Source: Cordylochernes scorpioides | Lineage: Eukaryota; Arthropoda; Arachnida; Pseudoscorpiones; Chernetidae | Direction: 5' to 3' | Assembly: GCA_030710605.1 (NCBI GenBank) | Contig: CP092864.1 | Location: 136,959,255-137,023,254 of the forward strand | Length of the DNA: 64,000 bases | In this document: one piece after another, positions 2,719-64,000 of the stretch | Layout: the number at the start of each line of letters is the position of its first letter | Numbering within the stretch: the stretch's first letter is position 1 | Notes under the pieces: model-generated | What the model was told of the DNA's origin: nothing | Databases searched by the model: none | What the model saw: the letters and a program-made list of their open reading frames with translations, nothing else | Position numbers and translations under genes: made by a program

Positions 2719-2950
2719 TGTTGAAATTGGTAAACAAATCAATTTATAATAATCTGTGATGTAAAATATGTTCCTTTTTGACTAAGTTTGTTTTTGTTTA
2801 TGTTGTAGTAATAGCTTAGAATATTGAAGCTCAACTCTTTCTTCTTTTGTTAAGTTAATTATTTTGTTTAACCTCTCCTTGTATTTGAATAATAAATTTG
2901 TTTAAATTAATAAGCTGCAGTTTTGCTAAATTAAAATTCAAAATACAACA
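2719..2950 (+). repeat. copia 5' LTR
   Basis: 232 bp, TGTTGAAATTGG to AAATACAACA. It is preceded by CATAT and followed by the primer-binding site. It matches the 3' LTR at all but one position by eye. Confidence 0.95.
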
Positions 2951-2952
2951 AC

Positions 2953-2965
2953 TGGTAGCAGAAGC
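2953..2965 (+). promoter_or_regulatory. copia primer-binding site (initiator tRNA-Met)
   Basis: TGGTAGCAGA begins 2 nt after the 5' LTR and is complementary to the 3' end of metazoan initiator tRNA-Met (…TCTGCTACCA). Priming by initiator tRNA-Met is common in copia-type elements, although Drosophila copia itself uses an internal tRNA fragment. Confidence 0.75.
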
Positions 2966-3044
2966 CTGGTTAATTGTTATTGCGTCAGAAGAAAACGCCG
3001 ATTTTTTTGAAAGAAAGGTTGAGTACGATTATATATTTTTAAAA

Positions 3045-11892: not shown

Positions 11893-11909
11893 GGTTTTTC
11901 CATTTGCGT

Positions 11910-13007
11910 TTAAACTAGTGATTTTGTCAGTTTTTTTCCTAATGGGTTTTGTTTTTTTTTCCAGAAGTCTGTTGGGCTCGATTCAAGTTTGCTTAAAAAA
12001 CTATTCCAATTTTCAGATTTCTCTGCTTCAAGGGCTTGATTTACCTTTCCTTGAAGATTGAGGTAAGTAGCTCTATGAGCTGGATCCCAGGTTGATTGCC
12101 ATCTTTTCCTAGCTTTATTTTTCTCCCTTATTAAGGCTTTGGTGTTTGGGTTCTTTATTAATTTGGAAGATGAAACTATGGTGTTTTTCGAGTAGCTATT
12201 ATTAATTTTTTCGTTTAAAATTCCAACTGCTGAATCAATGTCTACTTCAGTTTTCAAGCTGAGTCTGGGGGGCGTGGTGGAGATTAAATCTTGTTGAAAA
12301 TGAACCCAATTAGTTACTCGGCTGAGCTGGGTTGTGAATTCATCCTTTGGGCAATTCAATTCAAAGATTACAGGGAGATGGTCAGATGATAAATCGTCGG
12401 TGGTTCTGGCCTTTGGGGTCCAGGGAATGTTTTTAAGTACAGCGAAGTCTAGGAAATCGGGATTGCCGAGTGGACTGTAATGCGTGGGTGACGAAGGTGC
12501 GACAATGTCGAGGCTTTCTCTTTCAGAGAAATTGTGCAGCACGATTCCACTGTTATTTGAAGTCCTTGATCCCCAAAGAGGGTGTTTGGAGTTCCAGTCT
12601 CCTGCAACGATTATTGAGTGGTTGTGTTTTATCAGTTGGTTCAAATCTTCTTCCAATAATGGTGCATCAGGCTTCTTATAAATTGCTGTGATTTGCAAGA
12701 GGGTTTTTCCATCTGGTTTTATCAAAATTGAAGTATTTTCCAAGTTTAAAGTATGAATCAGCATATTTTTATATTTAAAAAAGGATTTTATAATGATGGC
12801 TGTTCCCCCGCCCTTTCCTGTAATTCGATCAGTTCTAATGGTTTGATAGTTCCTGAACTTTAGATCAATTGAGGGTTTAAGGTGAGTTTCACTGAGCAGA
12901 GCAATGTCAATTGAGTTATCTTCTAAAAAGTGCAATAATTCTTCTTTCTTTGGTCTGATTCCGTTACAATTCCAAGCAATAATTTTAAAAGGTAATTTGC
13001 AATTCAT
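11910..13007 (-). CDS. LINE ORF2, endonuclease part
   Basis: Starts MNCKLPFKIIAWNCNGIR, 6 nt after the ORF1 stop. This is an APE-type endonuclease of the EEP superfamily: WNCNGIR, LLSETHL (catalytic Glu), AGDWNSKHPLWGS (Asp and Asn) and SSDHLPVIF (Asp-His). It nicks the target for target-primed reverse transcription. After DFWKK the frame is lost at a 9-A run (plus-strand T-run 11952-11960) and stops at 11910; removal of one A would restore continuity with the RT frame. Confidence 0.92.
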   Translation of the reverse strand: MNCKLPFKIIAWNCNGIRPKKEELLHFLEDNSIDIALLSETHLKPSIDLKFRNYQTIRTDRITGKGGGTAIIIKSFFKYKNMLIHTLNLENTSILIKPDGKTLLQITAIYKKPDAPLLEEDLNQLIKHNHSIIVAGDWNSKHPLWGSRTSNNSGIVLHNFSERESLDIVAPSSPTHYSPLGNPDFLDFAVLKNIPWTPKARTTDDLSSDHLPVIFELNCPKDEFTTQLSRVTNWVHFQQDLISTTPPRLSLKTEVDIDSAVGILNEKINNSYSKNTIVSSSKLIKNPNTKALIREKNKARKRWQSTWDPAHRATYLNLQGKVNQALEAEKSENWNSFLSKLESSPTDFWKKKQNPLGKKLTKSLV

Positions 13008-13013
13008 TGTAGG

Positions 13014-13403
13014 TTATGTTTTGATTACTTGCATCAATTTTTCACACAGGTCCTTAGTTTCAGAACGAGAAGTTTTTCTTGTCACAACCTCAGCATTGCT
13101 TTGGTTTTGTTGTTCTACAATTTTCGGCAGTGTTTCAGATCTTTTTGAAATCGGAAGTGGGTTGTTAGGTTTGTACTGACCAGGGTATCTTGGCTGTTGC
13201 TGATGTACTCTTGGAAACTTAGGGCATCCGCGGTAATTGGCTGTGTGCGCTTCCTCGCAGTTTGCACACTTTGGGGGAAGTTGTCTTGACTTTCTTGGGC
13301 AGTCCTTCGAATGGTGCTCCTCGGCACACTTGACGCATTTTGGTTTCAGGAAGCAGTTAAGTTGACCGTGCCCGAAACCCTGGCAGTTGAAGCATTGAGT
13401 CAC
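13014..13403 (-). CDS. LINE ORF1, zinc-knuckle part
   Basis: C-terminal part of ORF1 with three CCHC-like knuckles: CFNCQGFGHGQLNC, CVKCAEEHHSKDC and CANCEEAHTANYRGC. This layout is the Jockey-clade ORF1 type, an RNA-binding chaperone of the retroelement RNP. The open frame continues upstream into the other part without a proper start of its own. Confidence 0.9.
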   Translation of the reverse strand: MTQCFNCQGFGHGQLNCFLKPKCVKCAEEHHSKDCPRKSRQLPPKCANCEEAHTANYRGCPKFPRVHQQQPRYPGQYKPNNPLPISKRSETLPKIVEQQNQSNAEVVTRKTSRSETKDLCEKLMQVIKT

Positions 13404-13482
13404 ACGGTTTGTTGTTCTGAAAGATTCTACTGCAATTTTCTGATAGAGAAGTTCAGTTATTCCGTAAATTTTCTTGTTTTGT

Positions 13483-14202
13483 TCATTTTTTCGGTAATTC
13501 TACCAGTACTAAATTCATTGGGCTTTTAGTTGATTGTCTATGAAGTCTCTTCACAGAGGTCTCAGTAAAGCCCATTGTTGCAAGTTCTATTGCTATATCT
13601 TCAGTCTTGTAGGCTGTTGTCACGCCCTTTAATACTACTTTGAGCGGTTTTTCTTCTTGGAGTCTATAAGAGTAGCCGCCATTATTTTTTTGAACATATT
13701 CCCTGATTTTTTTGAAGTCTGAAATATTTTTGGCCTTGATAATGTGCTTATTTCCTGAGATCGTGCATTGGAATTTATCTGTGCACAGGTCTTTCAGCTC
13801 TTGGCAGAGCAACTTCCAGTCTGTTACATTTTCTGCTATTACAGGTGGTATTCTTGGCTTTTTTGCATGTGTGACTTTTGTCCAAGGACCATCTTCATCA
13901 ATGTTTTCTTCGTTAACCTGAGAAGGGGTAGCTGCGGACGTTTCTTGAGGGACTTCAGTTACCTCGTTCATGGAGGCATCGTTTTCATTATGCTGTGAGA
14001 CAACTTCCATTCTCGGTGTCTTATGGCTACGTGGTGTTGAAACTGAGGGGGATTCGCGAGTTCGTTTCTTTGTTGAAGGAGTTTCTTCTACTTTGTACTC
14101 GATGCCACATCTTTCAAGAATTTTCAAAAGTATGTTGGTGTCGATTATACTGACCTTTTCGCCAGCTGGGCCGATCGTTGATTTGATTACAATAGGCTGC
14201 AT
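13483..14202 (-). CDS. LINE ORF1, N-terminal part
   Basis: The ATG at 14202 (MQPIVIKSTIGPAGEK) is chosen because upstream residues lie outside the target duplication. Then come a low-complexity Ser/Thr/Pro-rich segment, a DGPWTKVTHAKK motif and a PRE_C2HC/RRM-like segment (YSYRLQEEKPLKVVLKG, MGFTETSVKRLH). The frame is lost at an A6 run (plus-strand T-run 13486-13491); one fewer A would continue into the zinc-knuckle part. Confidence 0.9.
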   Translation of the reverse strand: MQPIVIKSTIGPAGEKVSIIDTNILLKILERCGIEYKVEETPSTKKRTRESPSVSTPRSHKTPRMEVVSQHNENDASMNEVTEVPQETSAATPSQVNEENIDEDGPWTKVTHAKKPRIPPVIAENVTDWKLLCQELKDLCTDKFQCTISGNKHIIKAKNISDFKKIREYVQKNNGGYSYRLQEEKPLKVVLKGVTTAYKTEDIAIELATMGFTETSVKRLHRQSTKSPMNLVLVELPKK

Positions 14203-14223
14203 CTTTTTCTCTCTACTTTTACC

Positions 14224-14250
14224 TGAAGCAAGTTTACAGAGAAACAAAAT
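14224..14250 (+). repeat. dispersed repeat D, right part, with second LINE target duplication
   Basis: TGAAGCAAG (14224-14232), then TTTACAGAG and CAAAATATAAAT, matching the end of repeat D at 22930-22953 and 39351-39374. Confidence 0.7.
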
Positions 14251-14353
14251 ATAAATATCAAAATTATTAATCTGTTTATAAAATAAATATTTGACTATTA
14301 ATATTTTCAACGTCAAATATTCTGAAAATATAGATTTTGATATTGATGGCACA

Positions 14354-14547
14354 ATATTTATAATTTTCGAAACTATTATAGACGCGTATGATTCTTTTAA
14401 AATAAAAAAAAAAATGCTACGGTCTTTACTGAAATGCAATCCATTGCAGTAAGGGCAGTAGTAAATTGTTTAATTTTAAAAGAATCATACGCGTCTATAA
14501 TAGTTTCGAATTTTCATAACAGATGGCGCGCTAATGTATCATATTTA
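14354..14547. repeat. family K fold-back remnant
   Basis: Inverted arms containing TTCGAAACTATTATAGACGC and its complement surround CCATTGCAGTAAGGGCAGTA. The right end is CAGATGGCGCGCTAATG. The ribozyme hairpins of other family K copies are missing. Confidence 0.7.
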
Positions 14548-27210: not shown

Positions 27211-27335
27211 TATTTTACATTTCTTAGTTCTCTAAGAATCTTCGCAAATTACTTTATAAACTAAAAAACACAAAGTTTTTTTTTAACTTGAATTTTTGTT
27301 TCTTAGTAAATCGAGGAAAAAAAAAACTATAAACA

Positions 27336-27400
27336 GCCTGCTTGACTCATCAGTGCGAACTTTTCAAGCAGTTTCGCCAGTTTAATCTAAAAGTCACCTC
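27336..27400 (-). ncRNA. family K kissing-hairpin hammerhead, decayed
   Basis: Minus strand retains CTGGC-GAAA-CTGCT and CACTGATGAGTCAAGC, but the cleavage-site strand (normally AGCGGTC TGGT) is lost. Confidence 0.5.
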
Positions 27401-27528
27401 TATCCCTTAAACACTAATTTTAACTCGATTTGTGAGTTTTTTAAAAGAAATTTTAATAATAAAAATATCGTTGATGATAAAAGACCAACAAGGATTTCAA
27501 AATCTTAAATCAAGAATAGACCGAGAAA

Positions 27529-32532: not shown

Positions 32533-32567
32533 GCAGAATGATCCAATGCAGTATTAGAGCTCTAAGA

Positions 32568-32634
32568 AGCGGTCTGGTAGATTAAATTGGCGAAACCGCT
32601 GGGAGGGTCCACTACTGATGAACCAAGCTCTCCC
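32568..32634 (+). ncRNA. family K kissing-hairpin hammerhead, near-intact
   Basis: AGCGGU-C-UGGU / AGATTAAA / UUGG-C-GAAA-CCGCU / GGGAGGG / …ACUA-CUGAUGA-ACCAA / CUCUCCC. All core nucleotides are present. Helix I pairs with one G-U; helix II has lost its first pair (A10.1). Confidence 0.8.
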
Positions 32635-32754
32635 AATATATTTCTTCATCGCAGTAAGGACAGTAGAAGTTTGTTTTCTGTTAAAAAAGAAACATTCGTG
32701 CATTATAATGCTTCCATTTCTTATATATGAGGATATATATAAATGGGGGAGAAG

Positions 32755-33060: not shown

Positions 33061-33350
33061 ATAACATAAAGCTTATGTCCATAGTTTTCTTGAAAACCAT
33101 TTCTGAGATTCCACACTTCAGTGTAGCATATATAAGTAGAATGATCCAATACAGTATTAGAGCTCTAAGAAGCTGTCTGGTAAATTAATTTGGCGAAACC
33201 GCTGGGAGGGTTCACAACTGATGAGCCAAGCCCTCCCCAATGTATTTATCATCGCAGTAAGGACAGTTTGTTTTGTGCTTGAAATAAAAAAAGAAACATT
33301 TGTGCTTTAATGCTTCCATTTCTTATCTGAAGATTACGCGTTATCGCCTT
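33060..33350 (+). mobile_element. family K repeat
   Basis: AAGCTTATGTCCATAG, CATATATAAGTAGAATGATC, ribozyme, TCATCGCAGTAAGGACAGT, AAGAAACATTTGTGC. Confidence 0.75.
33171..33237 (+). ncRNA. family K kissing-hairpin hammerhead, two mismatches
   Basis: AGCUGU-C-UGGU / UUGGC-GAAA-CCGCU / GGGAGGG / ACAA-CUGAUGA-GCCAA / CCCUCCC. There is one mismatch in helix III (U16.3) and one in helix I. Helix II and the extra helix are perfect. Confidence 0.75.
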
Positions 33351-34844: not shown

Positions 34845-35310
34845 ACAGTTTATACTAATTATAAGGCGATAACGCAATAAGAAATGAAAGCATTATAAAG
34901 TACAAATATTTATTTTTTTAACACAAAACAAACTTTTACTGTCCTTACTGCGACGAAAAAAAATATATAAGGAGGGCTTGACTCATCAGTGGTGAACCCT
35001 CCCAACGGTTTCGCTAATTTAATCTACCAGACCGCTTCTCTTAGAGCTTCAATACTGTATTGGATGATTCTGCTTATATAGGCTGCAATGACGGGTGTAA
35101 TCTTAGAATAGTATTAAAGTAAACTATGGAAATAAGCTTTTAGGACAGTATAATTACATATAAATATTTACATCGAACAATGCTCTTCCGCAAACAATAA
35201 GGAGACAAGGCCAGTTAGGTATATTTAATTATAAGGCAATAACGTGCCATCTCGTATATATAAGAAATGGAAACATTATAAAGCACGAATGTTTCTTTTT
35301 TTAAACACAA
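34845..35310 (-). mobile_element. family K repeat
   Basis: Minus-strand copy with TATATAAG, ribozyme, the CATCGAACAATGCTCTTC block and an AACGTGCCATCTCGTATATA end. Confidence 0.75.
34971..35036 (-). ncRNA. family K kissing-hairpin hammerhead
   Basis: AGCGGU-C-UGGU / UUAGC-GAAA-CCGUU / GGGAGGG / ACCA-CUGAUGA-GUCAA / CCCUCC. Core complete. Helix I perfect, helix III with one G-U, helix II with a G-U and one mismatch. Confidence 0.75.
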
Positions 35311-37790: not shown

Positions 37791-37858
37791 TTTTTTCAAT
37801 AATATCATCAAATATCATCTCTACAGACCTTACTGCAATGATATAAGTTATTGAATTA

Positions 37859-37922
37859 GAGGGTTTGACTCATTAGTAGTGAACCCTCTCAGCGGTTTCA
37901 CCAAATTAAAATCTAGACCGCT
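37859..37922 (-). ncRNA. family K kissing-hairpin hammerhead, G5 mutated
   Basis: AGCGGU-C-UAGA / UUUGGU-GAAA-CCGCU / GAGAGGG / ACUA-CUAAUGA-GUCAAA / CCCUC. Helix I is UAG/CUA instead of UGG/CCA, a paired change. CUAAUGA replaces CUGAUGA, so it is probably inactive. Confidence 0.7.
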
Positions 37923-38262
37923 CTACTATTGTATTGGATTGGTTTGGGATATACCCTGTATTTTCTATGGAAGGCAGCTTAGGGGTGTTTATTGAACCTA
38001 TGGACCTAAGCTTATAGGTATGTAGAGGTACATATACATATAATTTCAAGGTATTGAATTTATTATAATTAAGTTTATAAATTTAATTTACTAATATATA
38101 TTTGTTATGAAACCATATTTGCGGAAGAGCTTTGCTCGATGCAATACCTTATAATTATATGTATGTACCTCTACAGACCTATAAGCTTATGTCCATAGGT
38201 TCACTAAACACCCCTAAGCTGCTTTCCATATAAAATACAGGGTATATCCAATACAATATTAT

Positions 38263-38329
38263 AGCGGTTTAGAGATTAATTTGGGGAAACCGCTTAGAGG
38301 GTTCACTACTGATGAGCCAAGCACTCTCA
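38263..38329 (+). ncRNA. family K kissing-hairpin hammerhead, GUU triplet
   Basis: AGCGGU-U-UAGA / UUGGG-GAAA-CCGCU / AGAGGG / ACUA-CUGAUGA-GCCAA / CACUCU. Helix I UAG/CUA again. The first pair of helix II is G/G. Confidence 0.7.
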
Positions 38330-38465
38330 TTCAATAACTTATATCATTTCAGTAAGGCCTATAGAGATAATATTTGATGATGCCATTAAAAAGAAACACA
38401 TTGCCAGTGAATTTTTTGTTATAAATAATAATTTTTAACGCTTTGCCAAATGTTTTTAATTTTTG

Positions 38466-38512
38466 TTCGCTCCTGACGAGGACGAAAGAATTTTGTCGAA
38501 ACGTCGAGACAA
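38466..38512 (+). ncRNA. hammerhead-like motif (family H)
   Basis: CTC-CTGACGA-G-GAC…GTC-GAAAC-GTC-GAG. CTC before the core can pair with GAG after GTC (stem I), and GAC pairs with GTC (stem II), with one extra G. Stem III would exist only in a dimer (ACGU). Confidence 0.5.
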
Positions 38513-40439: not shown

Positions 40440-40660
40440 TATGCTAATACAAAGCAATAACGCGCCATCTATATATAACGAATGAAGACATTAAGACGCG
40501 ATGTGGTCTGGTAGATTATATTGGCGAAACCGCTGGGAAGGTTCACCACTGATGAGTCAAGCCCTTCCAATATTTTTTCATTGCAGTAAGGACAGTAGAA
40601 GTTTGATTTATTTGTGAAAAGAAACATTCGTGTGTTAATGTCTTCATTCGTTAGTACGCT
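40440..40660 (+). mobile_element. family K repeat
   Basis: GCGCCATCTATATATAACGA left end, ribozyme at 40502-40568, TCATTGCAGTAAGGACAGTA, ATGTCTTCATTCGTTA. Confidence 0.7.
40502..40568 (+). ncRNA. family K kissing-hairpin hammerhead, near-intact
   Basis: UGUGGU-C-UGGU / UUGGC-GAAA-CCGCU / GGGAAGG / ACCA-CUGAUGA-GUCAA / CCCUUCC. Core complete, helix I perfect, helix II with one G-U, helix III with one G-U and a frayed end. Confidence 0.8.
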
Positions 40661-40668
40661 ATGTATAA

Positions 40669-41660
40669 TGAATATGGCTTCTCTAACATTACTGCAGAGT
40701 TTGGTGGAGAATCGCCAGCGGGTCTCCAGCGACACCACGCATTTCGACCTCTATAAAGAAAACGTAGATCGCATGCTTTGCCGCTGAAGAGATGGTGATG
40801 GCGTGGTCTTCGAGACCAACTTGAAAGATCCAGAACTGCAAGTCCGGCGGCCAGCAAACGATAAAAAAAAAACTTCTCAAATTTTAAATAGAATTTATGG
40901 TCAAAAGTTTTTTAAAATTCACTGAAATGGTATAAAAAAATAATAAAGAAAACTAAACAAACCCACAAATTGTTGACCAAAATGTTGCAGAAGATGTCCT
41001 TGAAGTTAAATCTAAGCAGACGGAAGTCAGTCAAGGCGCTACTTAAGCAAAATACGCGGGCAGACGCTATTAGGACGTGTGGCAAACGATTTCGAAACTT
41101 TCGTCTGCTATTGTTAAGCTTTCCTCATTTATTGTCGTTATTCAACTCAAATAGTCTCTTTTTGTCCTCCATTTCCATTAAATTTTTTATGGCATTGTGA
41201 AATAGGCTTTCCTTTTTGTTATCTTTTATATTTTTTGTCTTTAAATGATGTGGAGTATTTGGTGAGAGTAAATGTTTTAGATTGCCGTTCGATTTTTTTA
41301 TTTTTTTATTTCTTTTGTATAAATTGTTGGTGTGGTAGTCTTTGAGGATATATTTTATTTTTCTCTATTTATCTATATTACCGAAAAAAGGCTACAATTT
41401 ATTTATTTGAACACACAAAACGCGATATCCCAGCTAAGGATAATTGCGTCGATTTACATTTTTTAAACAGAAACAGTTATAAACATATTATACAAGAAAA
41501 TAAATACATTTAAGAAAAAGAGAAACAATAAGATATATTAGGAACCTAATCCTTTCAGGTTAGAAAGATAATCAAAAGAATATTTATAAAATTGGTTAAA
41601 TCTGTGAATAAATAAATGCTACAATGACCCCTGATTCATGCAAAAGTCCAACCAGTATGA
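40669..41660. other. no gene called; GC-richer islands near 40690-40860 and 40975-41110
   Basis: The second island carries three GCAGACG-type motifs and a short open stretch (DQNVAEDVLEVKSKQTEVSQ then GAT, stop) that I cannot assign. 41617-41656 is a SINE body fragment (CCCCTGATTCATGCAAAAGT). Confidence 0.4.
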
Positions 41661-41929
41661 TAACTATTCAGAATCGAAACCTATCGTGTTTAAGACAAAA
41701 ATTAGATTTATAACCAAGATTTTAAAATCCTGAATTCTTTTTCTGAAGATAAAGGTTGCCTGGCCGGCATTCATATTTCTGTGAAAGATAGACACTAATA
41801 AAAAAAACTCTAACTGGCCGAAGTGTCTTTTTTTTTCACAGAAATACTTTTGATTGATTTTTGTAAAGATCAAATGTTTGTTTTTAAATGAGTATGCATA
41901 TTTATCATTATATAAAATAAAAGGATTTA

Positions 41930-42452
41930 AAAGCGCGAATGTTTCTTTTATACATAAAACAAACTTCTACTGTCCTTACTGCGATGAAAAAATATATTGG
42001 GAGGGCTTGGCTCATCAGTGGTGAACCCTCCCAGCGGTTTCGCCAATTTAATACACCAGACCGCTTCTCTGAGCTCTAATACTGTATTGGATCATTCTGC
42101 TTTTTATATGCTACACTGAAGGATGGAATCTTAGAAATGGTTTTCAAGTAAACTATGGACATAAGCTTATAGGACAGTAGCATTACATTTAAATATTTGC
42201 TTCGAGCAATGCTCTTCAGCAAACTATAAAGACAAGGCCAGTTAGGAATAAATTAACACAAAGCAATAACGTGCCATCTATACATATAAAATGAAAGAAT
42301 TTGAAAGCACGAATGTTTCTTTTATACATAATACAAACTTCTACTGCCCTTACTGCGATGATGATAAGGACAGTAGAAGTTTGTTTTATGTATAAAAGAA
42401 ACATTCAAGCTTTTAAATCCTTTTATTTTATGTGTATAGATGGCGCGCTATT
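41930..42452 (-). mobile_element. family K repeat, best-preserved copy
   Basis: Minus-strand element with GATGGCGCGCTATTG end, TATAAAAAGCAGAATGATCC box region (42096-42110), the ribozyme at 41998-42065, TCATCGCAGTAAGGACAGTA and AAGAAACATTCGCGC. It is followed on the right by an inverted second end (42356-42450). Confidence 0.8.
41998..42065 (-). ncRNA. kissing-hairpin hammerhead ribozyme, intact reference copy (family K)
   Basis: Read on the minus strand: III3' AGCGGU (42065-42060), C17 (42059), I5' UGGU (42058-42055), linker GUAUUAAA, II3' UUGGC (42046-42042), GAAA (42041-42038), III5' CCGCU (42037-42033), GGGAGGG (42032-42026), UUC, I3' ACCA (42022-42019), CUGAUGA (42018-42012), II5' GCCAA (42011-42007), G, CCCUCCC (42005-41999). 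Helices I (4 bp), II (5 bp), III (6 bp including A15.1-U16.1) and the extra helix (7 bp) are all perfect. Predicted cut between 42059 and 42058. The strand order is not that of types I-III. Confidence 0.85.
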
Positions 42453-42655
42453 GATTTGGGTTAATTTATCATTATGATATTTAAGACCTCTATCGCCATT
42501 TACATAACTGTAAATTAGAATAAGTAAGACATCTCTCTCTGTCCATCTTCATTTGGAATTTAGTTATAATAGAAAGTTAATTTGATTTTTAAATTGCATA
42601 AGCATTTCTGTGAATTTTAAAATACCATCGATTCTATATTTAAGGTCGAGATGGA

Positions 42656-43075
42656 TTAACACTCATGGACAAAATTTAAAGGAGTGGAAAGTATTTGATA
42701 TCGCCTGTTATCTATTTTTTTTAAGGAAACAGAGGTAATATTGTTCACACTTGGTTATATCTTGTGCTTTCAATAAAGGTTATTCTCTGAATCCCAATAT
42801 ACATGCTAAAGGTACAACTTTCTTAAGTTTTGTCCATGAGTGTATCTTTCAGAGTTATTGTCTGAATCCTGATATACATGCTAAAAGGTATAACATCCTT
42901 AAGTTTTGTCCATGAGTGTATCTTTCAGAGTTATTGTCAGAATCCCGATATACATGCTAAATGGTACAACTTCCTTAAGTTTTGTCCATGAGTGTATCGT
43001 TCAGAGTTATTGTCTGAATCCCGATATACATGCTAAAAGGTATAACTTCCTTAAGTTTTGTCCATCAGTATAAAG
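42656..43075 (-). repeat. Tc1-like tandem array, inverse of 36186-36690
   Basis: TTAAGTTTTGTCCATGAGTG units with CAGAGTTATTGTCTGAATCC and GATATACATGCTAAAAGG, about four copies. Confidence 0.8.
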
Positions 43076-43079
43076 GCTG

Positions 43080-43655
43080 ACGAGAATCTGCTAAATCGCA
43101 TCCTGGAGCAAAAATGGTTTCAATTTGTATATATAGATGGTACGTTATTGTCTTCTGTTTATATTACAAGATGTTTTTTACCGACAGAATAAACGAGAGT
43201 ATTTTATGCAGGTATTCTTAAGACGTATTATTATTGTTGTATGTCTAAGGAAAGAAACCTTCAGAACACATGGAGTGTACTTCAAACCACTTCTCCTTCT
43301 TCCTCAAAGTTCATTGCTCCCTCTCCAGTGTTGCCAACTACATTTACATTTTCGTATTGTTCTGTGATTTTATATTAACAGACTAGACGTTGCTTCGTCT
43401 GGGTTCTATTTAAGTGAATATATTCTCAATCGATATTGTTTGGAATTTTTGATCATATATTGGAATACAGAAATTTAAGGAATAAACAGTAAAATTGATT
43501 TTTTTTTGAAAATTACACAAAATTATAATAAATTTGGATTTTATTCTTATTTTTATTTATTACTAATCAAATGCTATATCCTATGTGGTTTTATTTGCGT
43601 GTAAATATTTAAACTATTTATATACAAACAGTTTCAATATATATATATATATACA
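43080..43655. other. no gene seen
   Basis: AT-rich; (AT)n tract near 43638-43670. Confidence 0.4.
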
Positions 43656-47640: not shown

Positions 47641-47846
47641 TTCTTAAAGGTTTTTTTTTTTTTGTGGATTTGTTGTTTGAATTCTTTTTTTCTCATATTT
47701 AAGAGATTTTTAAAAAGTTATTTTATTTTATATATTTTTTGCCATCTATCGATAAAATTTCTAACAAATAAATTTACTGGCAATGTGTTTCTTTTCAATA
47801 ATATCATCTCTACAGACCTTACTTGCAATGATATAAGTTATTTAAT

Positions 47847-47912
47847 GAGAGGGATAAGCTCATCAGTAGTGAAAAATCTCAGCGTTTTCGTCAAATTAAT
47901 TTCTAGACCGCT
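47847..47912 (-). ncRNA. family K ribozyme, decayed
   Basis: AGCGGU-C-UAGA and ACUA-CUGAUGA-GC are kept. GAAA is followed by ACGCU (C15.2 lost) and the extra helix is damaged. Helix I is the UAG/CUA type. The element is interrupted at 47932 by a LINE tail. Confidence 0.65.
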
Positions 47913-47934
47913 CTACTATTGTATTGGATTCTTG

Positions 47935-53058: not shown

Positions 53059-53398
53059 TGTTGCGCCAGGTTGCGGCTTGGCAGACTCTTCAGCCTTGAT
53101 TCTCTCCTGTGCTGGGTCTTGCATCTTACCAGAGCGTGTTTCAACCATCCTACAAATTTATATGAGGGAATAATGGGATAAGTCTACTTTAAGTAGCCTC
53201 CAGAATAATTATTTATTTTTTCACATCAAAGAGAGCAGTGAAGTCACACGTGTACCTAAATACAAATGATGATAATCTAAATAATCTGTTTTAAATAAAT
53301 ATCATAGAATATTTATATAAAAATAAATAAATATATAATTTAAATTTCAAATATATTAAAAATAATATAATAAATACGCCATTAATCATGATGTAACA
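53059..53398 (-). repeat. gypsy 3' LTR
   Basis: 340 bp. On the minus strand starts TGTTACATCATGATTAATGG and ends CCGCAACCTGGCGCAACA. It contains the last codons and stop of pol (53382-53398), and a silent copy of the gag start. Confidence 0.95.
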
Positions 53399-56369
53399 CT
53401 TCCCCCTCTCCAGAGGTCGTCACGTCCTCGTGATTGACCTCATCAATTCTTTCAAAATAGGGTTTGATTCTTGAGACATGGACAATCAATGGGTCTTGGC
53501 CAGGATTATCTTTTGGTTCAATCAAGTAATTTACGTTGGACAGCTTCTTTAATATTCTATATGGGCCAAAATATTTTCTCAGTAGTTTCTCACACTTTCC
53601 TATTTTCCTAATTGGTGTCCAAACTGCTACTAATTCTCCTGGTTCGTAGCTTCTTTCCATGTGTTTCTTGTCATAGTTCTTTTTCATTCTTTCTTGAGTC
53701 TTTATTGTGTTGTTAATAACTAATTTTCTTGTTCTGTTTATTTTGTCTAAGTGATGTTTTATGTATTCATCATAATCATCCTTGTCAATGTCCACCGAGA
53801 TATTCCTGTCGTCCAAAAGAGACGTGGGTTCTCTTCCAAACATCAGGAAAAAGGGAGAATATCCTGTGGTTTCCTGAATTGTAGTATTGTAAGCGTGAGT
53901 GATGAATGGGAGTATTTCGTCCCAATTCTTCTGATCAGTGTTCACATACATACTGAGCATATTGATCAATGTTCTATTTAACCGCTCTGTCAATCCATTA
54001 GTCTGGGGATGATAGCTCGTTGTGAAGCAATGTTTAATCTTGCACGTTTTCATCACCTCTTTCATTAAATTACTGGTAAATTGAGAGCCTCTGTCACTAA
54101 TAAGATATTGTGGGGCTCCGTGCCGGAGAAAAATATCCTCTACTAGAAATTTAGAAACTTCTTTCACTGTTGCTTCCGAGACTGCTCTTGTTTCTGCATA
54201 TCTAGTGTAGTAGTCCGTCAGCACGATTATCCATTTTTTCCTGTTTTTCGTAGATGGCAGTGGACCAACAAAGTCAATTCCAATTCTTTCGAAAGGAAAG
54301 TTGGCTGGGGGGATGGGCTGTAGTAGTCCAGAAGGTAATTGGTTTGAGCCTTTCCTACTTTGGCAAAGGCGACACGTCTTAACGAATTCTGAGACATCCT
54401 TTAGCATGGATGGCCAAAAGTATTTACTCTTTATTCGGTACATGGTTCTGGCGACGCCCAGATGGCCATTCGACATATGATTGTGATATTTTTTCATAAT
54501 TTCTCTCTTTTTCTTCTCTGGAACCACAAGCAACCACGCCCTGCCTTCAGGGTTCGGGTTTTTCTTAAAGAGGCATCCATCTTCTTCTTTAAAGTTTTGC
54601 GCAATTGATCGCCTGCTTCCATTAAGGTTTTTCTTAACACTTTCGATAAATTTATCCTCTTCGTCTGTTATTTGATTTAAAAATAGCCTTTCAAAATCCT
54701 CATCCCAATCAGTTTCTGGTAAGGGTCCCCTAGATAAGCCATCGGCGTCCAGATGCTTCTTTCCCGATTTATGTATTATATCGAAGTCATATTCTTGAAT
54801 TTTCAACGCCCATCTTGCCAATCGACCTGTTGGATCCTTCAAGTTTTTGAGCCAGCATAAGGCGTGATGGTCTGTTACTATTTTAAAGTGTCTTCCATAA
54901 AGGTAGGGTCGTAATTTTGACATTGACCAGACAACGGCCAGACATTCTTTTTCAGTGGTTGAATAATTTTGCTCCGCTTTACTCAGGGTACGACTCAAAT
55001 ATGAGATCACCTTCTCTTCACCACCGATGTCTTGGACAAGAGTTGCACCTATGCCGATGTTGGACGCATCAGTATGAATATAAGTAGGCGCATTTGGATT
55101 GAAGTGCCCTAAGATTGGTGGACTTAATAGTGCTGTTTTTAGGGTTTGAAATGCTTCCTCTTGCCTTTCTGTCCAGGTAAATGATACACTTTTTTTAATA
55201 AGGTTGGTCAAAGGGTCAGCAATTTTTGAGAAATCTTTGATAAATTTTCTATAATATGAGCACATTCCCAAAAATGATTGTATTTCTTTGACCTTTGTGG
55301 GCCGAGGAAAATTTCTGATAGCTTTGATGTTATGTTCCGCGGGTTTTATACCATGTTTTCTCGTTATATAGCCGAGAATCTCCAATTCTTCAAAAACAAA
55401 TCGGCATTTTTTGTCGTTTAATCTTAAATTAGATTCACGAAAACATCTAAAAACAGCTTCGAGTCTTTTGAGGTGCGTTGGAAAATCCGGGCTATATATG
55501 ATAACATCATCCAGATAACACAAACAAATTTGCCATCTCAGATTTCCAAGCATAATCTCCATATTTCTCTCAAAGGTAGCAGGCGCGTTACAAAGTCCAA
55601 AAGGCATCACGTTGAATTCATATAACCCATGTGCCGTAGTGAAAGCCGTCTTCTCTTTGTCTTTCTCTTCAATTTCGACTTGCCAATATCCCGATTTGAG
55701 ATCTATTGCTGAGAAGTACTTGTATCCTTGGAGAGAATCCATTACATCATCAATTCTTGGGATTGGATAAACATCCTTCACTGTTACTTCATTTAATTTC
55801 CTGTAATCCACACAAAATCTGTATTTGCCATCTCGTTTTTTGACCAATATAACGGGAAAGGACCAGGGACTTGAAGATGGTCTAATTATTCCTTCTTCAA
55901 GCATCTCGTCTATTTGATCCTTTATGATGGTTCGTTCCTTAGCACTTACCCTGTAAGGCTTGTGCTTTATCGGTTTTGCGTCTTCTGTATGAATTTGATG
56001 TTTTGCCAAATTGGTCCTGCCTAACCTCGATGAGAACAAATCAGTATACTTGGCCAAAATTTGTTTTAACCTCTCTTGTTCTTTAAATGATAAATTTTTG
56101 TTTATTTGAAATTGTATTTTGTCATTTTCATTTTGCTTCTCTATATTCTCTATAAAATTTACCTCTGCAGGAAGACTTCCATAAGCCAATGTTTGGTCTT
56201 TCATGATTTTTAAAGGTCGAGGATAAGGGTTCGTTATCCAGATATGAGTTTTCTTATCCGGGACAGTAAGCAAACTTCTTGCCAATCGAAGACCATTTGT
56301 TTGAGTCATTTTGTCGTTCTCTTCGATGACATATTCCCCATCCTCTGCTTCTATTGAGGCCCTAATCAA
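53382..56369 (-). CDS. pol: gypsy pol: RT, RNase H, integrase
   Basis: The Met at 56369 is only the first in the frame; the open frame extends upstream to the A10 shift site at 56414-56423. RT: KPYRVS, DVYPIPRIDDVMDSL, FSAIDLKSGYWQ (Asp), VMPFGLCNAPATF, CYLDDVIIYS (catalytic DD). RNase H: YIHTDASNIGIGATL, TTEKECLAVVW, TDHHALCWL. Integrase: HNHMSNGHLGVARTMY and CRLCQSR (zinc domain), IGIDFVGPLPS (Asp), ISDRGSQFTS (Asp), YHPQTNGLTERLNRTL (Glu). A GPYRILKKL-type C-terminal domain follows. The stop codon is inside the 3' LTR. Confidence 0.95.
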   Translation of the reverse strand: MIRASIEAEDGEYVIEENDKMTQTNGLRLARSLLTVPDKKTHIWITNPYPRPLKIMKDQTLAYGSLPAEVNFIENIEKQNENDKIQFQINKNLSFKEQERLKQILAKYTDLFSSRLGRTNLAKHQIHTEDAKPIKHKPYRVSAKERTIIKDQIDEMLEEGIIRPSSSPWSFPVILVKKRDGKYRFCVDYRKLNEVTVKDVYPIPRIDDVMDSLQGYKYFSAIDLKSGYWQVEIEEKDKEKTAFTTAHGLYEFNVMPFGLCNAPATFERNMEIMLGNLRWQICLCYLDDVIIYSPDFPTHLKRLEAVFRCFRESNLRLNDKKCRFVFEELEILGYITRKHGIKPAEHNIKAIRNFPRPTKVKEIQSFLGMCSYYRKFIKDFSKIADPLTNLIKKSVSFTWTERQEEAFQTLKTALLSPPILGHFNPNAPTYIHTDASNIGIGATLVQDIGGEEKVISYLSRTLSKAEQNYSTTEKECLAVVWSMSKLRPYLYGRHFKIVTDHHALCWLKNLKDPTGRLARWALKIQEYDFDIIHKSGKKHLDADGLSRGPLPETDWDEDFERLFLNQITDEEDKFIESVKKNLNGSRRSIAQNFKEEDGCLFKKNPNPEGRAWLLVVPEKKKREIMKKYHNHMSNGHLGVARTMYRIKSKYFWPSMLKDVSEFVKTCRLCQSRKGSNQLPSGLLQPIPPANFPFERIGIDFVGPLPSTKNRKKWIIVLTDYYTRYAETRAVSEATVKEVSKFLVEDIFLRHGAPQYLISDRGSQFTSNLMKEVMKTCKIKHCFTTSYHPQTNGLTERLNRTLINMLSMYVNTDQKNWDEILPFITHAYNTTIQETTGYSPFFLMFGREPTSLLDDRNISVDIDKDDYDEYIKHHLDKINRTRKLVINNTIKTQERMKKNYDKKHMERSYEPGELVAVWTPIRKIGKCEKLLRKYFGPYRILKKLSNVNYLIEPKDNPGQDPLIVHVSRIKPYFERIDEVNHEDVTTSGEGEVLHHD
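53399..53412 (-). promoter_or_regulatory. gypsy polypurine tract
   Basis: GGAGAGGGGGAAG on the minus strand abuts the 3' LTR; it also encodes GEGE of the Pol C-terminus. Confidence 0.8.
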
Positions 56370-56410
56370 TTTAATAGATAGTTTAGGTATAACGGTATCT
56401 GTAGTGCTCT

Positions 56411-56794
56411 TTATTTTTTTTTTAGATCATAATTGCTTACGTCATGATTACTCATCAAATTATATTTTATCGTTTCTCGTTTACAATCAATTTTAGCATT
56501 CATTTTTTTAAGGAAATCTCGTCCAAGAATAAGAGTTCGTAGATGCGCGTCCATTACTACAAATTCGTGGGATAATTCAGTGTCATCAATTTTTAAATCT
56601 AAAATAATGCTACCTACCATATCTAATTTTTTCCCATCGGGTCCTGAACATGTTTTAGTGAGACTATTTATTTCACGGCCAGCAAAAAGTGCTGTCCTTA
56701 GTTCGACCACTGAAAGATCGGCGCCTGTATCAATCAAAGCTTCGCATAACCCTATCTTGTCCACATTAATATTAATTTTGTACCTAGGGTCCAA
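56411..56794 (-). CDS. pro: gypsy aspartic protease
   Basis: The frame is open from the UUUAAAC site at 56854-56860, reading LSVAPDSFNQS before the codon at 56794, which is TTG, so the true product is a Gag-Pro fusion and not a separate start. ALIDTGADLSVVEL is the active-site DTG; LILGRDFLKKMNA is the C-terminal retropepsin motif. It ends DLKKK, stop, at 56411, directly after an A10 run. Confidence 0.9.
   Translation of the reverse strand: MDPRYKININVDKIGLCEALIDTGADLSVVELRTALFAGREINSLTKTCSGPDGKKLDMVGSIILDLKIDDTELSHEFVVMDAHLRTLILGRDFLKKMNAKIDCKRETIKYNLMSNHDVSNYDLKKK
56414..56423 (-). promoter_or_regulatory. putative -1 frameshift site, pro to pol (A10)
   Basis: An A10 tract lies immediately before the protease stop. 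Slipping back one base enters the pol frame (KSTTDTVIPKLS…). An assembly error in the homopolymer would look the same. Confidence 0.55.
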
Positions 56795-56850
56795 CTTTCT
56801 AATTCCATTTATGGTCGACTTGCTTTGATTGAAGGAATCAGGCGCGACAC

Positions 56851-58014
56851 TTAGTTTAAATCTTCCAACACGGAATATCTATTCCGTGTAGGAATATTCG
56901 TTTGTGTGTCATTACAAACATCCGCATAGAGGCGAGGCCGTGTATAATCTTTTCTTTCGTCCATTTGAAGATTTTCTTGACTCTTGTCTTGGGAAACTGA
57001 GGGGTCCTCTTCTACGATCCTCACAAACTTGACTCTGCAATACCGCGCTACGTGTCCTGGCTTGTTACACTTGAAACATATTGGTCTCCCGTCTTCTGTC
57101 CTATTCCTATTTGAATTTGAATTCTTATTGTATGTTTTACTTGGGTAGACCGGTTTTGGCTCAGGATTGGGAGTGTAAGATCGTCTAGGGGCAGATACCT
57201 GGGGCAGAGGCTTGTTCTGGTAGTACCTCGGAGTGGGGGCCTGGGGCTTGGAGGTGTTCTGGTAGTACCTCGGAGCGGGGGCCTGGGGCTTGGAGGTGTT
57301 CTGATATGGTCTTCTGAACGACGTAGCATTCTTCCATTGCTCTTGATGATGGGGACGAGGAGAGCGTGGTCCAATATATAGAGCTCTTGATTTTTCTGCA
57401 CGTTCTTGGTAATTATTTTCGAACAAATCCAGCTTTTTACAAATTTCTAGAAGTTCATTGGTATTTTTAGGAGGGTTTAGGTGAAGGGCAAAAGAGTATT
57501 CTTTCTTTAACCCTCCAATAACCCAGTTTATTTTAGTCTCTTCCTCCATTTGGGGGTCGACCTTGTTGCACAGTACAAGGATATCCTCTGCGAACCTGAT
57601 TGCAGGTTCATTCCACTGTTGCATCCTGTTTAGTCTCATCTTCATTTCTTCTTTGTTGGCGTCTGAGGCAAAATCCTCAATTAGGCGGCTCTTGAAATTT
57701 TCCCAGCTGGTGAAACTTATCTTGTGTAGGTTCAGCCAGGTTTTGGCGCTACCAATCATATTCATGGCAGCATAACGGGAGATAATGTAGTCTGCCCAAT
57801 GGTACAGGAAGCCAATTTCTTCAAGAGATTCAATCCATGGGCGAGGGTCTTCCGTTCCATCATACTTGGGGATGTCGATGTTGGGATTCAGGACAACTGG
57901 GTCGGAACTAGCATCTCCACCAATTGTTGCGCCAGGTTGCGGCTTGGCAGACTCTTCAGCCTTGATTCTCTCCTGTGCTGGGTCTTGCATCTTACCAGAG
58001 CGTGTTTCAACCAT
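56851..58014 (-). CDS. gag: gypsy gag, starting inside the 5' LTR
   Basis: 387 residues. The ATG at 58014 (MVETRSGKMQDPAQERIKAE) lies within the 5' LTR; the first 30 residues are LTR-encoded and the next (IGGDASSDP) cover the primer site. A capsid-like region about 45-215 (DPRPWIESLEEIGFLYHW, MNMIGSAKTWLN, INWVIGGLKKEYSFAL), a Pro-rich stretch with three YYQNTSKPQAPAPR-like repeats about 235-285, then a zinc knuckle CFKCNKPGHVARYC about 321-334. It ends EDLN, stop. No better ATG after the LTR is in frame at a plausible position before the capsid. Confidence 0.9.
   Translation of the reverse strand: MVETRSGKMQDPAQERIKAEESAKPQPGATIGGDASSDPVVLNPNIDIPKYDGTEDPRPWIESLEEIGFLYHWADYIISRYAAMNMIGSAKTWLNLHKISFTSWENFKSRLIEDFASDANKEEMKMRLNRMQQWNEPAIRFAEDILVLCNKVDPQMEEETKINWVIGGLKKEYSFALHLNPPKNTNELLEICKKLDLFENNYQERAEKSRALYIGPRSPRPHHQEQWKNATSFRRPYQNTSKPQAPAPRYYQNTSKPQAPTPRYYQNKPLPQVSAPRRSYTPNPEPKPVYPSKTYNKNSNSNRNRTEDGRPICFKCNKPGHVARYCRVKFVRIVEEDPSVSQDKSQENLQMDERKDYTRPRLYADVCNDTQTNIPTRNRYSVLEDLN
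56854..56860 (-). promoter_or_regulatory. putative -1 frameshift heptamer UUUAAAC, gag to pro
   Basis: In gag frame the codons are GAT TTA AAC TAA, so U-UUA-AAC is the canonical X-XXY-YYZ slippery heptamer directly before the gag stop. A -1 slip continues into LSVAPDS… and the protease. Confidence 0.75.
57911..57922 (-). promoter_or_regulatory. gypsy primer-binding site (tRNA-Ala)
   Basis: TGGTGGAGATGC on the minus strand, 2 nt inside the 5' LTR end, complementary to the 3' end of tRNA-Ala (…GCATCTCCACCA). It is read through as gag codons. Confidence 0.7.
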
Positions 58015-58589: not shown

Positions 58590-58850
58590 TGCTGTCCTCA
58601 AAGCTTATGTCCATAGTTCATCTAAAATATCCATTCAAAGAGTCTAGCATCAGTATCACTATATAAGGAAGTTCGAAAAATGCAATATAACAGCGGTATG
58701 GTAGATTAAACTGGCGAAACCGCAGGGAGGGTTCAACACTGATGAGCCAGGCCCTCCCATTATTTTTTCCATTGCAGTAAGGACAGTAGAAATTGTTTAT
58801 TTTTAAAAAGAATCTTACGCGTCTATAATAGTTTCGAAAGTTAATCTATG
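58590..58850 (+). mobile_element. family K repeat
   Basis: AAGCTTATGTCCATAG, CTATATAAGG, ribozyme at 58692-58759, CCATTGCAGTAAGGACAGTA, CGCGTCTATAATAGTTTCGA. Confidence 0.75.
58692..58759 (+). ncRNA. family K kissing-hairpin hammerhead, near-intact (GUA)
   Basis: AGCGGU-A-UGGU / CUGGC-GAAA-CCGCA / GGGAGGG / AACA-CUGAUGA-GCCAG / CCCUCCC. Core complete with triplet GUA. Helix II is CUGGC/GCCAG, a paired change from UUGGC/GCCAA. One mismatch in helix I. Confidence 0.78.
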
Positions 58851-61679: not shown

Positions 61680-61895
61680 CGTAAAGTTAGAGGTTGCCTG
61701 GCCGGCATTCATATTTCTTCAAATAAAAGAAACTTCGGCCAGTAAATCTTTTTATTGTATCGACGTTTCGACAAAAAGCTTTTGTCCTCGTCAGGAGAAA
61801 ATTAATTTTTGTTTGCTCCTGACGAGGACAAAAGCTTTTGGTCGAAACGTCGAGACAATAAAAAGATTTACTGGCCGAAGTGTCTTTTATTTGAT
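61680..61895. mobile_element. fold-back with two inverted hammerhead-like motifs (family H)
   Basis: CTTCGGCCAGTAAATCTTTT and its complement are the arms. Motifs at 61757-61797 (minus) and 61811-61860 (plus) read CTC-CTGACGA-G-GACAAAAGCTTTT…GTC-GAAAC-GTCGA. A further copy is at 63893-63935 (minus), and arm fragments at 41745-41835. Confidence 0.6.
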
Positions 61896-62845: not shown

Positions 62846-63100
62846 AGGGGCATGTATCATCAGTGATAAACTTTCACAGTTTTTAATCAACCAAACCGAT
62901 TTTAAGAGATTTTTACTATTGTATTGCGTATTATAAACGGTATAGAAAATTAAACTGGCGAAACTACTTGGATGGTTCACTACTGATGAGCCAGGCCCTC
63001 TCAATAATTTTCATCGCAGTTAAGAACAGTAGGAGGCGTGTTTTTATTTGAGAAAGAAAAATAGGGTTTTAATAGTTTCATTTCTTGAATATAGATGGCG
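62846..63100. mobile_element. divergent pair of family K copies, decayed
   Basis: Minus copy 62846-62912: UCGGU-U-UGGU and ACUGAUGA kept, other strands eroded. Plus copy 62935-63002 is better preserved. End TATAGATGGCGCATTATTG. Confidence 0.6.
62935..63002 (+). ncRNA. family K kissing-hairpin hammerhead, partly decayed
   Basis: AACGGU-A-UAGA / CUGGC-GAAA-CUACU / …/ CUA-CUGAUGA-GCCAG. Helix I UAG/CUA and helix II CUGGC/GCCAG both pair; helix III is weak. Confidence 0.65.
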
Positions 63101-63812: not shown

Positions 63813-64000
63813 GTTTAATATGTGAATAACCTTCAGATATTATTCATTTTATATGAAAAATAGACACTTCGGCCAGTTGGAGTTTTTTTATTTTCTCAAC
63901 GTTTCAACAAAAATATTTTGTCTTCGTCAGGAGAAGTAAATTAAAAAAAAAAAGCATTTGGCAAGGCGTTAAAAATTGTTCTGTCTTCGTCAAACTCCAA

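Follow-up and report, generated by a model that had tools for sequence, protein, structure and literature searches.

A hammerhead core with the strand order S-G-C

The window analyzed here is a 64,000-nucleotide (nt) stretch of the genome of the pseudoscorpion Cordylochernes scorpioides (contig CP092864.1, forward-strand positions 136,959,255 to 137,023,254; host genome of 2.62 Gb in 24 contigs). At positions 41998-42065, its minus strand carries a 68-nt motif that resembles a hammerhead ribozyme and belongs to a family of repeats. Read directly from 42065 to 41999, the minus strand runs AGCGGU-C17-UGGU-GUAUUAAA-UUGGC-GAA-ACCGCU-GGGAGGG-UUC-ACCA-CUGAUGA-GCCAA-G-CCCUCCC. All hammerhead core letters are present (C3-A9, G12-A14, A15.1-U16.1 and a base other than G at 17), and stems III (6 bp), I (4 bp), II (5 bp) and a fourth stem (7 bp) are formed with zero mismatches. 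The core strands follow one another as cleavage strand, GAAA strand and CUGAUGA strand (S-G-C). The original prediction, made from the letters of the window, had claimed both the complete core and this strand order; direct reading bears out both, and the strict descriptor described below returns the same order. The parts of the motif, as read directly, are the following, with further evidence in brackets:

42060..42065, minus: stem III 5' strand AGCGGU, with U16.1 at 42060 (pairs counted in the alignment)
42059, minus: C17; predicted cut between 42059 and 42058 (U1.1 junction peaks)
42055..42058, minus: stem I 5' strand UGGU (pair 1.2-2.2 covaries G-C/A-U)
42047..42054, minus: 8-nt linker between the outer ends of stems I and II
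42042..42046, minus: stem II 3' strand UUGGC (outer pair covaries U-A/C-G)
42039..42041, minus: G12, A13 and A14
42033..42038, minus: stem III 3' strand ACCGCU, with A15.1 at 42038
42026..42032, minus: fourth stem 5' strand GGGAGGG, with a 0-nt join to stem III (second pair covaries G-C/A-U)
42019..42022, minus: stem I 3' strand ACCA
42012..42018, minus: CUGAUGA (C3-A9)
42007..42011, minus: stem II 5' strand GCCAA
41999..42005, minus: fourth stem 3' strand CCCUCCC

The minimum-energy fold of the 68 nt alone has -26.2 kcal/mol (z -2.20, equalled by 5 of 200 shuffles) and consists of one hairpin with stem III and one with the fourth stem, whose loops can pair through stems I and II. This is the arrangement that the original prediction had proposed. 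Its connectivity was thought to be undescribed, which is wrong: the motif has the layout of the published type SGC, with the extra stem and, as in a few members of that type, a zero-nucleotide join (Eckert et al. 2023, PMC10085705).

Chance occurrence and searches with existing models

A strict descriptor (stem I of 4 bp, stem II of 4 bp, stem III of 5 bp, the core letters, any of the six strand orders, gaps of at most 60) matches the window twice, at 42064 on the minus and 40503 on the plus strand, both times in the order SGC. Given that the two matches belong to the same family, they count as a single event. Hammerhead types I, II and III (orders S-C-G, C-G-S and G-S-C) are thereby excluded. 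Among 4000 dinucleotide shuffles of the window, 39 contain a descriptor match of any order; SGC matches number six across all shuffles, and two of these have a fourth stem of at least 6 bp. Because matches are this scarce, a chance origin of the motif was rejected. Tandem concatenation was also considered as a route from SGC to a cyclic order, and by reasoning it is impossible.

The search of Rfam suggested in the original prediction was carried out with release 15. At the gathering score, the window has no hammerhead match; there is none even at E<=10 in window positions 41000-43500, and none at E<=5 in three loci with tandem copies. The model RF00163 has no match over the host genome; control genomes are equally silent, and this result is hence uninformative. 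One degenerate 36-place pattern of the subfamily to which the motif belongs has no match in viral_contigs.

Three subfamilies and covariation between them

Copies of the core from the window and the rest of the genome fall into three subfamilies. Subfamily 1, to which the motif at 41998-42065 belongs, has C17, stem I UGGU/ACCA, stem II UUGGC/GCCAA and fourth stem GGGAGGG/CCCUCCC; subfamily 2 has A17, stem I UGGU/ACCA and stem II CUGGC/GCCAG; subfamily 3 has C17, stem I UAG/CUA, stem II UUGGC/GCCAA and fourth stem GAGAGGG/CCCUCUC. The whole core is retained in the majority sequences of all three.

We aligned 76 cores (75 distinct) with MAFFT without the use of structure, and then scored them on the pseudoknotted structure. 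The alignment omits 7 of 61 distinct cores, whose cleavage strand is absent, deleted or too diverged, a further core that has an extra A, six cores identical to others, and 11 of the 20 cores of one set, whose cleavage strand is non-homologous. Paired cells amount to 93.5%, as compared with 36-55% when the partners are slid. Pair 1.2-2.2 of stem I is G-C in 46 rows, A-U in 23, G-U in 4 and unpaired in 2; the outer pair of stem II is U-A in 43, C-G in 30 and unpaired in 2; the second pair of the fourth stem is G-C in 44, A-U in 24, G-U in 5 and unpaired in 2. The covariation score is 0.194 versus 0.134 in shuffles, with slid controls at 0.033-0.119, and double-change cells number 81 versus 33.9; none of 500 shuffles reaches either value. 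Excess covariation among aligned genomic copies, on which the original prediction had staked itself, is thus found, carried by these three pairs.

Position 17 is C in 40 rows, A in 33, T in 2 and G in 1. The core is intact in 57 of the 76 rows, and 22 of these also have all pairs standard; such partial loss is as expected of decaying copies.

The predicted ribozyme lies in a repeat of 373/374-bp units

The motif is part of an insertion (locus L001) with the following features:

41912..42463, minus: whole insertion, which begins (5') with an inverted fragment of the 3' tail, followed by the body, the ribozyme and a 3' tail ending CCTTTTATTTTATA
42464..42475: target-site duplication of 12 bp, ATAATGATAAAT (minus-strand letters), 5' side
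41900..41911: target-site duplication ATAATGATAAAT, 3' side
42284..42361, minus: direct repeat of the segment that adjoins the ribozyme on its 3' side, with its partner at 41910-41987, 374 bp apart

The direct repeat at this spacing is the trace of a 373/374-bp unit. At another locus (L032), four consecutive cores are spaced 374, 373 and 374 bp apart, with a unit G+C of 0.362-0.366. Locus L035 holds four cores in one direction and L033 two plus two in opposite directions; head-to-head pairs occur among the copies of the family. Subfamily 2 loci contain only three same-strand core pairs, 272, 522 and 1467 bp apart, so that tandem units are, as far as seen, a trait of subfamily 1.

The 30 subfamily 1 loci represent 26 separate insertions. 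Flanking direct repeats of at least 11 bp are found in 16 of the 26 versus 11 of 650 swapped flanks, and the target duplications in those 16 are 11-14 bp long; the other ten insertions have flanking direct repeats of 4-9 bp. A short interspersed nuclear element derived from a tRNA was considered as well, and Rfam finds no tRNA within the units of L031, L032 and L035. Beside the inverted retrozyme cluster of L031 there is a tRNA gene or tRNA-like sequence (L031:48-118, plus strand, 67.7 bits).

Starts of truncated copies peak at the predicted cut site in two subfamilies

If the template for reverse transcription were cut RNA, the cDNA would be expected to end at U1.1. Truncated copies were collected by junction patterns in which all five letters of GCGGU must be replaced, position 17 and those directly after it may vary, and the subsequent stretch is fixed. 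Such patterns list truncated copies irrespective of the break position; with the five-letter requirement, each pattern is a sample of the truncations. Forward and reverse matches number 241+225 for subfamily 1, 230+244 for subfamily 3, 1496+1496 for subfamily 2 and 1042+1055 for a wide pattern of subfamily 2. The counts below are made among the first 100 matches listed per pattern, collapsed to distinct prefixes (87, 84, 77 and 73, respectively). Reversed-pattern controls for subfamilies 1 and 3 have no matches.

Starts of the 87 subfamily 1 copies, with variable linker letters allowed, lie at C17 in 3, U1.1 in 19, 1.2 in 5, 1.3 in 2, 1.4 in 10, 1.5 in 18, 1.6 in 5, 1.7 in 5 and 1.8 in 7, with none in 13. 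For the 84 subfamily 3 copies, with TAG or TGG allowed, they lie at C17 in 4, U1.1 in 22, 1.2 in 3, 1.3 in 6, 1.4 in 3, 1.5 in 7, 1.6 in 18 and 1.7 in 9, with none in 12. Against evenly spread breaks, the U1.1 peak has p values of 5e-6 (local) and 0.001 (overall) in subfamily 1, and of 2e-5 and 0.001 in subfamily 3. When two and three junctions readable as slippage or inverted-arm letters are removed, U1.1 still accounts for 17 of 27 local starts in subfamily 1 (p 3e-5) and 19 of 32 in subfamily 3 (p 2e-4). The letter preceding the start is A in 11, T in 6, G in 4 and C in 3 of 24 cases in subfamily 1, and A in 15, C in 5, T in 4 and G in 4 of 28 in subfamily 3; C is rare in both, and C17 is therefore mostly not retained.

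For subfamily 2, the 77 starts include 21 at A17, 6 at U1.1, 17 at 1.7 and 11 at 1.8; those at 1.7 include recurrent fold-backs and AT-rich joins. With the wide pattern, 0, 0, 2, 1 and 3 of the 73 starts lie at 16.5 to 16.1, 12 at A17, 4 at U1.1 and 16 at 1.7, which places 16 of 73 at A17 or U1.1 versus 6 over the five upstream positions. Taken together, the 5' ends of truncated genomic copies suggest that the RNA is cut at the predicted bond in vivo.

Further copies and other features of the window

A search with a core profile in nhmmer finds the family at 17 places of the window (E<1e-9), including partial copies and one overlapping inverted pair. Copies other than the motif at 41998-42065 include:

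40501..40571, plus: second copy that matches the strict descriptor
32567..32636, plus: copy in which a pair at the stem II base is broken
33170..33239, plus: decayed copy
34968..35037, minus: decayed copy
37855..37923, minus: subfamily 3 copy (stem I UAG/CUA) with core G5 changed
38262..38330, plus: subfamily 3 copy with U17 and a mismatch at the base of stem II
47845..47913, minus: decayed subfamily 3 copy
58691..58760, plus: subfamily 2 copy with A17, CUGGC/GCCAG as stem II and a single mismatch in stem I, in an insertion flanked by an 11-bp duplication, AGTTAATCTAT
62935..63004, plus: older copy with A17, stem I UAG/CUA and stem II CUGGC/GCCAG

Over the host genome, four core queries gave 1994, 2332, 3767 and 2328 first-look candidates, of which the best 40 per query were scored. 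Five sampled 10-kb stretches, two of them near the window, contain three full cores, all within one stretch. The copy number of the family is large but poorly known. Among 151 cores, 70 are identical to either of two perfect subfamily 1 forms, with some copies counted twice because loci overlap.

Several other sequences touch on the family. The variant AGTTGAACGGTCTGGGGATTAAACTGG, with C17 and a different linker, is found at five places on one contig (C1). The same contig holds a small tandem array of seven 5'-truncated subfamily 2 cores at 87-bp spacing (C1:54826384-54826939), and fragments of the subfamily 3 query recur every ~90-105 bp at C12:70517338-70517967. Distant relatives of the core, with CTGATGA plus GAAA or AGAA and other stems, lie at window positions 27330-27402 (minus) and at L006:357-426 (plus), possibly as older families. 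The window also contains a U6 spliceosomal RNA at 1215-1317 on the minus strand (95.5 bits, Rfam), and coding regions of Copia type (2898-7165), of a long interspersed nuclear element with a PRE_C2HC domain (10369-14439) and of Ty3 type (53382-58014).

Interpretation

The 68-nt motif is very probably a type-SGC hammerhead ribozyme within a short non-coding retroelement of an animal genome. It is real and structured and probably catalytic, and an active or recently active ribozyme that would process a retrozyme-like element is the best reading. By analogy, this reading is supported by type-SGC RNAs of the same architecture, which cleave in vitro (PMC10085705).

The proposed life cycle is as follows. 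Transcription of the 373/374-nt unit would often yield head-to-tail multimers. Hairpin III and the hairpin of the fourth stem would form, and their loops would pair through stems I and II, upon which the RNA would cut itself between C17 (A17 in subfamily 2) and U1.1. Multimers would thus be trimmed to 373-nt units, perhaps circles, and the cut RNA may template target-primed reverse transcription, giving insertions with target duplications of 11-14 bp. The units are presumably mobilised by a Penelope-like enzyme.

A number of observations speak against an active ribozyme of this kind, or against the way in which its cut site was placed. The first group comes from the alignment. Pairs with both sides changed number 7 as compared with a shuffle mean of 6.1 (reached by 185 of 500), and further pair types number 24 versus 24.1 (316 of 500). 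The covariation signal resides in the three pairs with at least three double changes between subfamilies, and given that the rows group into subfamilies, the compensatory changes are few events seen many times. Stem III has no covariation between subfamilies, its double changes occurring in single rows only, and position 7 is T in 75 of 76 rows, though it is free in hammerheads. A structured repeat RNA without catalysis would keep its stems for another reason, such as the binding of a retrotransposon protein, and its likeness to a hammerhead would be accidental. Covariation shows only that the stems matter, and the two strong local hairpins fold independently, both of which suit such an RNA. 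Nevertheless, each of the three subfamilies retains the core letters outside the stems in its majority sequence, G is found at position 17 in only one of 76 rows, and the local junction peak falls at the predicted bond in two subfamilies that differ in their stem I letters. Hence, we consider a non-catalytic RNA highly improbable.

The second group comes from the junctions, again among the matches listed. Start clusters as large as those at U1.1 lie further 3', at 1.5 (18 of 87), 1.6 (18 of 84), 1.7 (17 of 77 and 16 of 73) and 1.8 (11 of 77). With only TAG allowed, the subfamily 3 starts become C17 4, U1.1 17, 1.2 2, 1.3 12, 1.4 3, 1.5 7, 1.6 18, 1.7 9 and none 12. Subfamily 2 has an excess of A directly before TGGTA (24 of 32 cases), so that the bond is placed there no better than to one nucleotide. 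The p values, moreover, rest on evenly spread breaks, which is a crude null. The ribozyme might therefore be real while the U1.1 peak stems from stops of the reverse transcriptase, from microhomology or from fold-back priming. Besides the clusters at 1.5-1.8, many junctions are in fact fold-backs, such as CTACCA joined to TGGTAG, and uncut RNA is the main template of a lizard Penelope-like element in vitro (PMC11167929). By reasoning, however, a stop at the boundary of stems I and III would depend on structure that is already unwound by the time the enzyme arrives. In subfamilies 1 and 3 the local peak spans a single nucleotide, the templated C17 is rare, and fold-backs at U1.1 on both arms are themselves expected if the template ends there. 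An origin of the peak other than cleavage is thus unlikely in our judgment, and cleavage at the predicted bond is preferred.

Finally, stem III abuts the fourth stem with no nucleotide between them, though such ends are far apart in the known fold. Pairing between units, or a partial opening of both stems, would be a solution. The ribozyme might then act mainly between molecules or neighbouring units, hairpin III of one copy being joined by the CUGAUGA hairpin of another, which would spare the strained join. Tandem and inverted copies do put several cores into one DNA stretch, and the minimal hammerheads of Penelope-like elements cleave as dimers. Against this stands the occurrence of the zero-nucleotide join in a few type-SGC RNAs, a class in which five candidates cut in vitro at the predicted bond (PMC10085705). 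Action mainly between copies appears quite unlikely, and cleavage within one core remains our preferred reading.

If this reading is correct, truncation junctions of retroelement copies allow ribozyme cleavage in vivo to be tested from genome sequence alone, and an animal that bears thousands of copies or more becomes a source of readable type-SGC variants. We find it likely that an animal lineage has a retrozyme whose hammerhead is non-circularly permuted. This would be the first type SGC for which both genomic host and life cycle are known, and its in vivo cut site would be recorded in the ends of insertions.

Comparison with known systems

Cervera and De la Pena are reported to have described, in 2014, Penelope-like elements with minimal type I hammerheads (work cited in PMC11167929). 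Tandem and head-to-head copies with a hammerhead near the ends are common to Penelope-like elements and the pseudoscorpion repeat. A unit of 373 bp is too short for a reverse transcriptase with a GIY-YIG endonuclease, and the repeat is hence not classed as Penelope-like. GIY-YIG domains are plentiful in the host genome (146 matches among the best 150 of 17015 candidates scored). Two Penelope-like loci with GIY-YIG and long frames, L112 and L113, are head-to-head pairs with arms of 2.7 kb at 98.4% and 2.4 kb at 100% identity, respectively; no sequence similarity was found between these two loci and the 373/374-bp unit. The hammerhead-like stretch of L113 has the order C-G-S, unlike the S-G-C of the repeat.

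Stretches like CTCCTGACGANGACNAAAGANTTTTGTCGAAACG lie near the outer ends of the L113 pair (L113:5836, plus; 1027, minus) and in the window at 38470-38503 (plus), 61764-61797 (minus), 61816-61849 (plus) and 63900-63933 (minus). With up to 3 mismatches, these four window matches compare with 0 in shuffles; the first has no Rfam score. We take their resemblance to be to minimal type I hammerheads, with the order C-G-S and a very short stem III. The uncut template of the lizard element differs from what the pseudoscorpion junctions suggest (PMC11167929).

Metazoan retrozymes without long terminal repeats are, according to PMC7229834, tandem repeats of 150-450 bp with low G+C and target duplications of more than 4 bp; they carry type I hammerheads (order CGS) and give linear and circular unit-length RNA. 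The pseudoscorpion repeat shares the tandem units, the low G+C and the target duplications, whereas its hammerhead is of type SGC. Circular RNA was shown for the metazoan retrozymes (PMC7229834), while circles of the pseudoscorpion unit are a proposal. Given the different hammerhead, we file the element as retrozyme-like rather than as a member of the retrozymes. This suggests that retrozymes are not tied to one hammerhead topology.

Non-circular hammerhead permutations, type SGC among them, were described by Eckert et al. 2023 (PMC10085705). Their type SGC has S-G-C blocks; a linker connects stems I and II on one side, a fourth stem ties them together on the other, and 0-44 nt separate this fourth stem from stem III. 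A member of the type would be expected to cleave itself at U1.1 and to lose this activity when G5 of CUGANGA is mutated; the U1.1 peak of the pseudoscorpion truncation junctions bears on this indirectly. The pseudoscorpion motif has the S, G, C order with CUGANGA, GAAA, A15.1-U16.1 and a base other than G at 17, together with stems I, II and III and the joining stem, with covariation in I, II and the fourth stem. Block order, four stems, core letters, a short I-II linker and the predicted cut site are thus common to the repeat and type SGC/HRIMA-1. The linker is 8 nt in the repeat and typically 3 nt in HRIMA-1, and stem I is 4 bp (3 bp in subfamily 3) and 5 bp, respectively (PMC10085705).

The original prediction had the 8-nt linker take the place of the usual loop-loop contact. 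This is plausible but incomplete, as stems I and II of type SGC may be tied by the fourth stem as well as by the linker. In the one type-SGC RNA tested by mutation, disruption of any of the four stems, the fourth included, stopped cleavage and restoration rescued it (PMC10085705). The few type-SGC members with a zero-nucleotide join are not readily placed in the crystal structure, and intact pseudoscorpion copies with the same join bear on that structural question.

The published type-SGC set comprises 583 predicted sequences; nearly all motifs of PMC10085705 are exclusive to metatranscriptomes, and its accessible parts mention no type SGC from the genome of a known organism. Our literature search, with most subscription papers and preprints outside its reach, found no report of type SGC in a genome; two later papers mention the discovery. 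As far as these searches show, the topology is already published, and what is new lies in host, DNA location, copy number and life cycle. Type-SGC hammerheads, so far almost only hostless sequences, would thereby gain a host, a mobile-element context and natural variants. The comparison also raises the question of whether permuted ribozymes arise by rearrangement or by convergence. If our reading is true, type SGC would have had two or more origins, or would have been exchanged between animals and the RNA agents found in metatranscriptomes. The pseudoscorpion motif is a high-copy DNA repeat of an animal and the type SGC of PMC10085705 comes almost only from metatranscriptomes, the two being likened by description.
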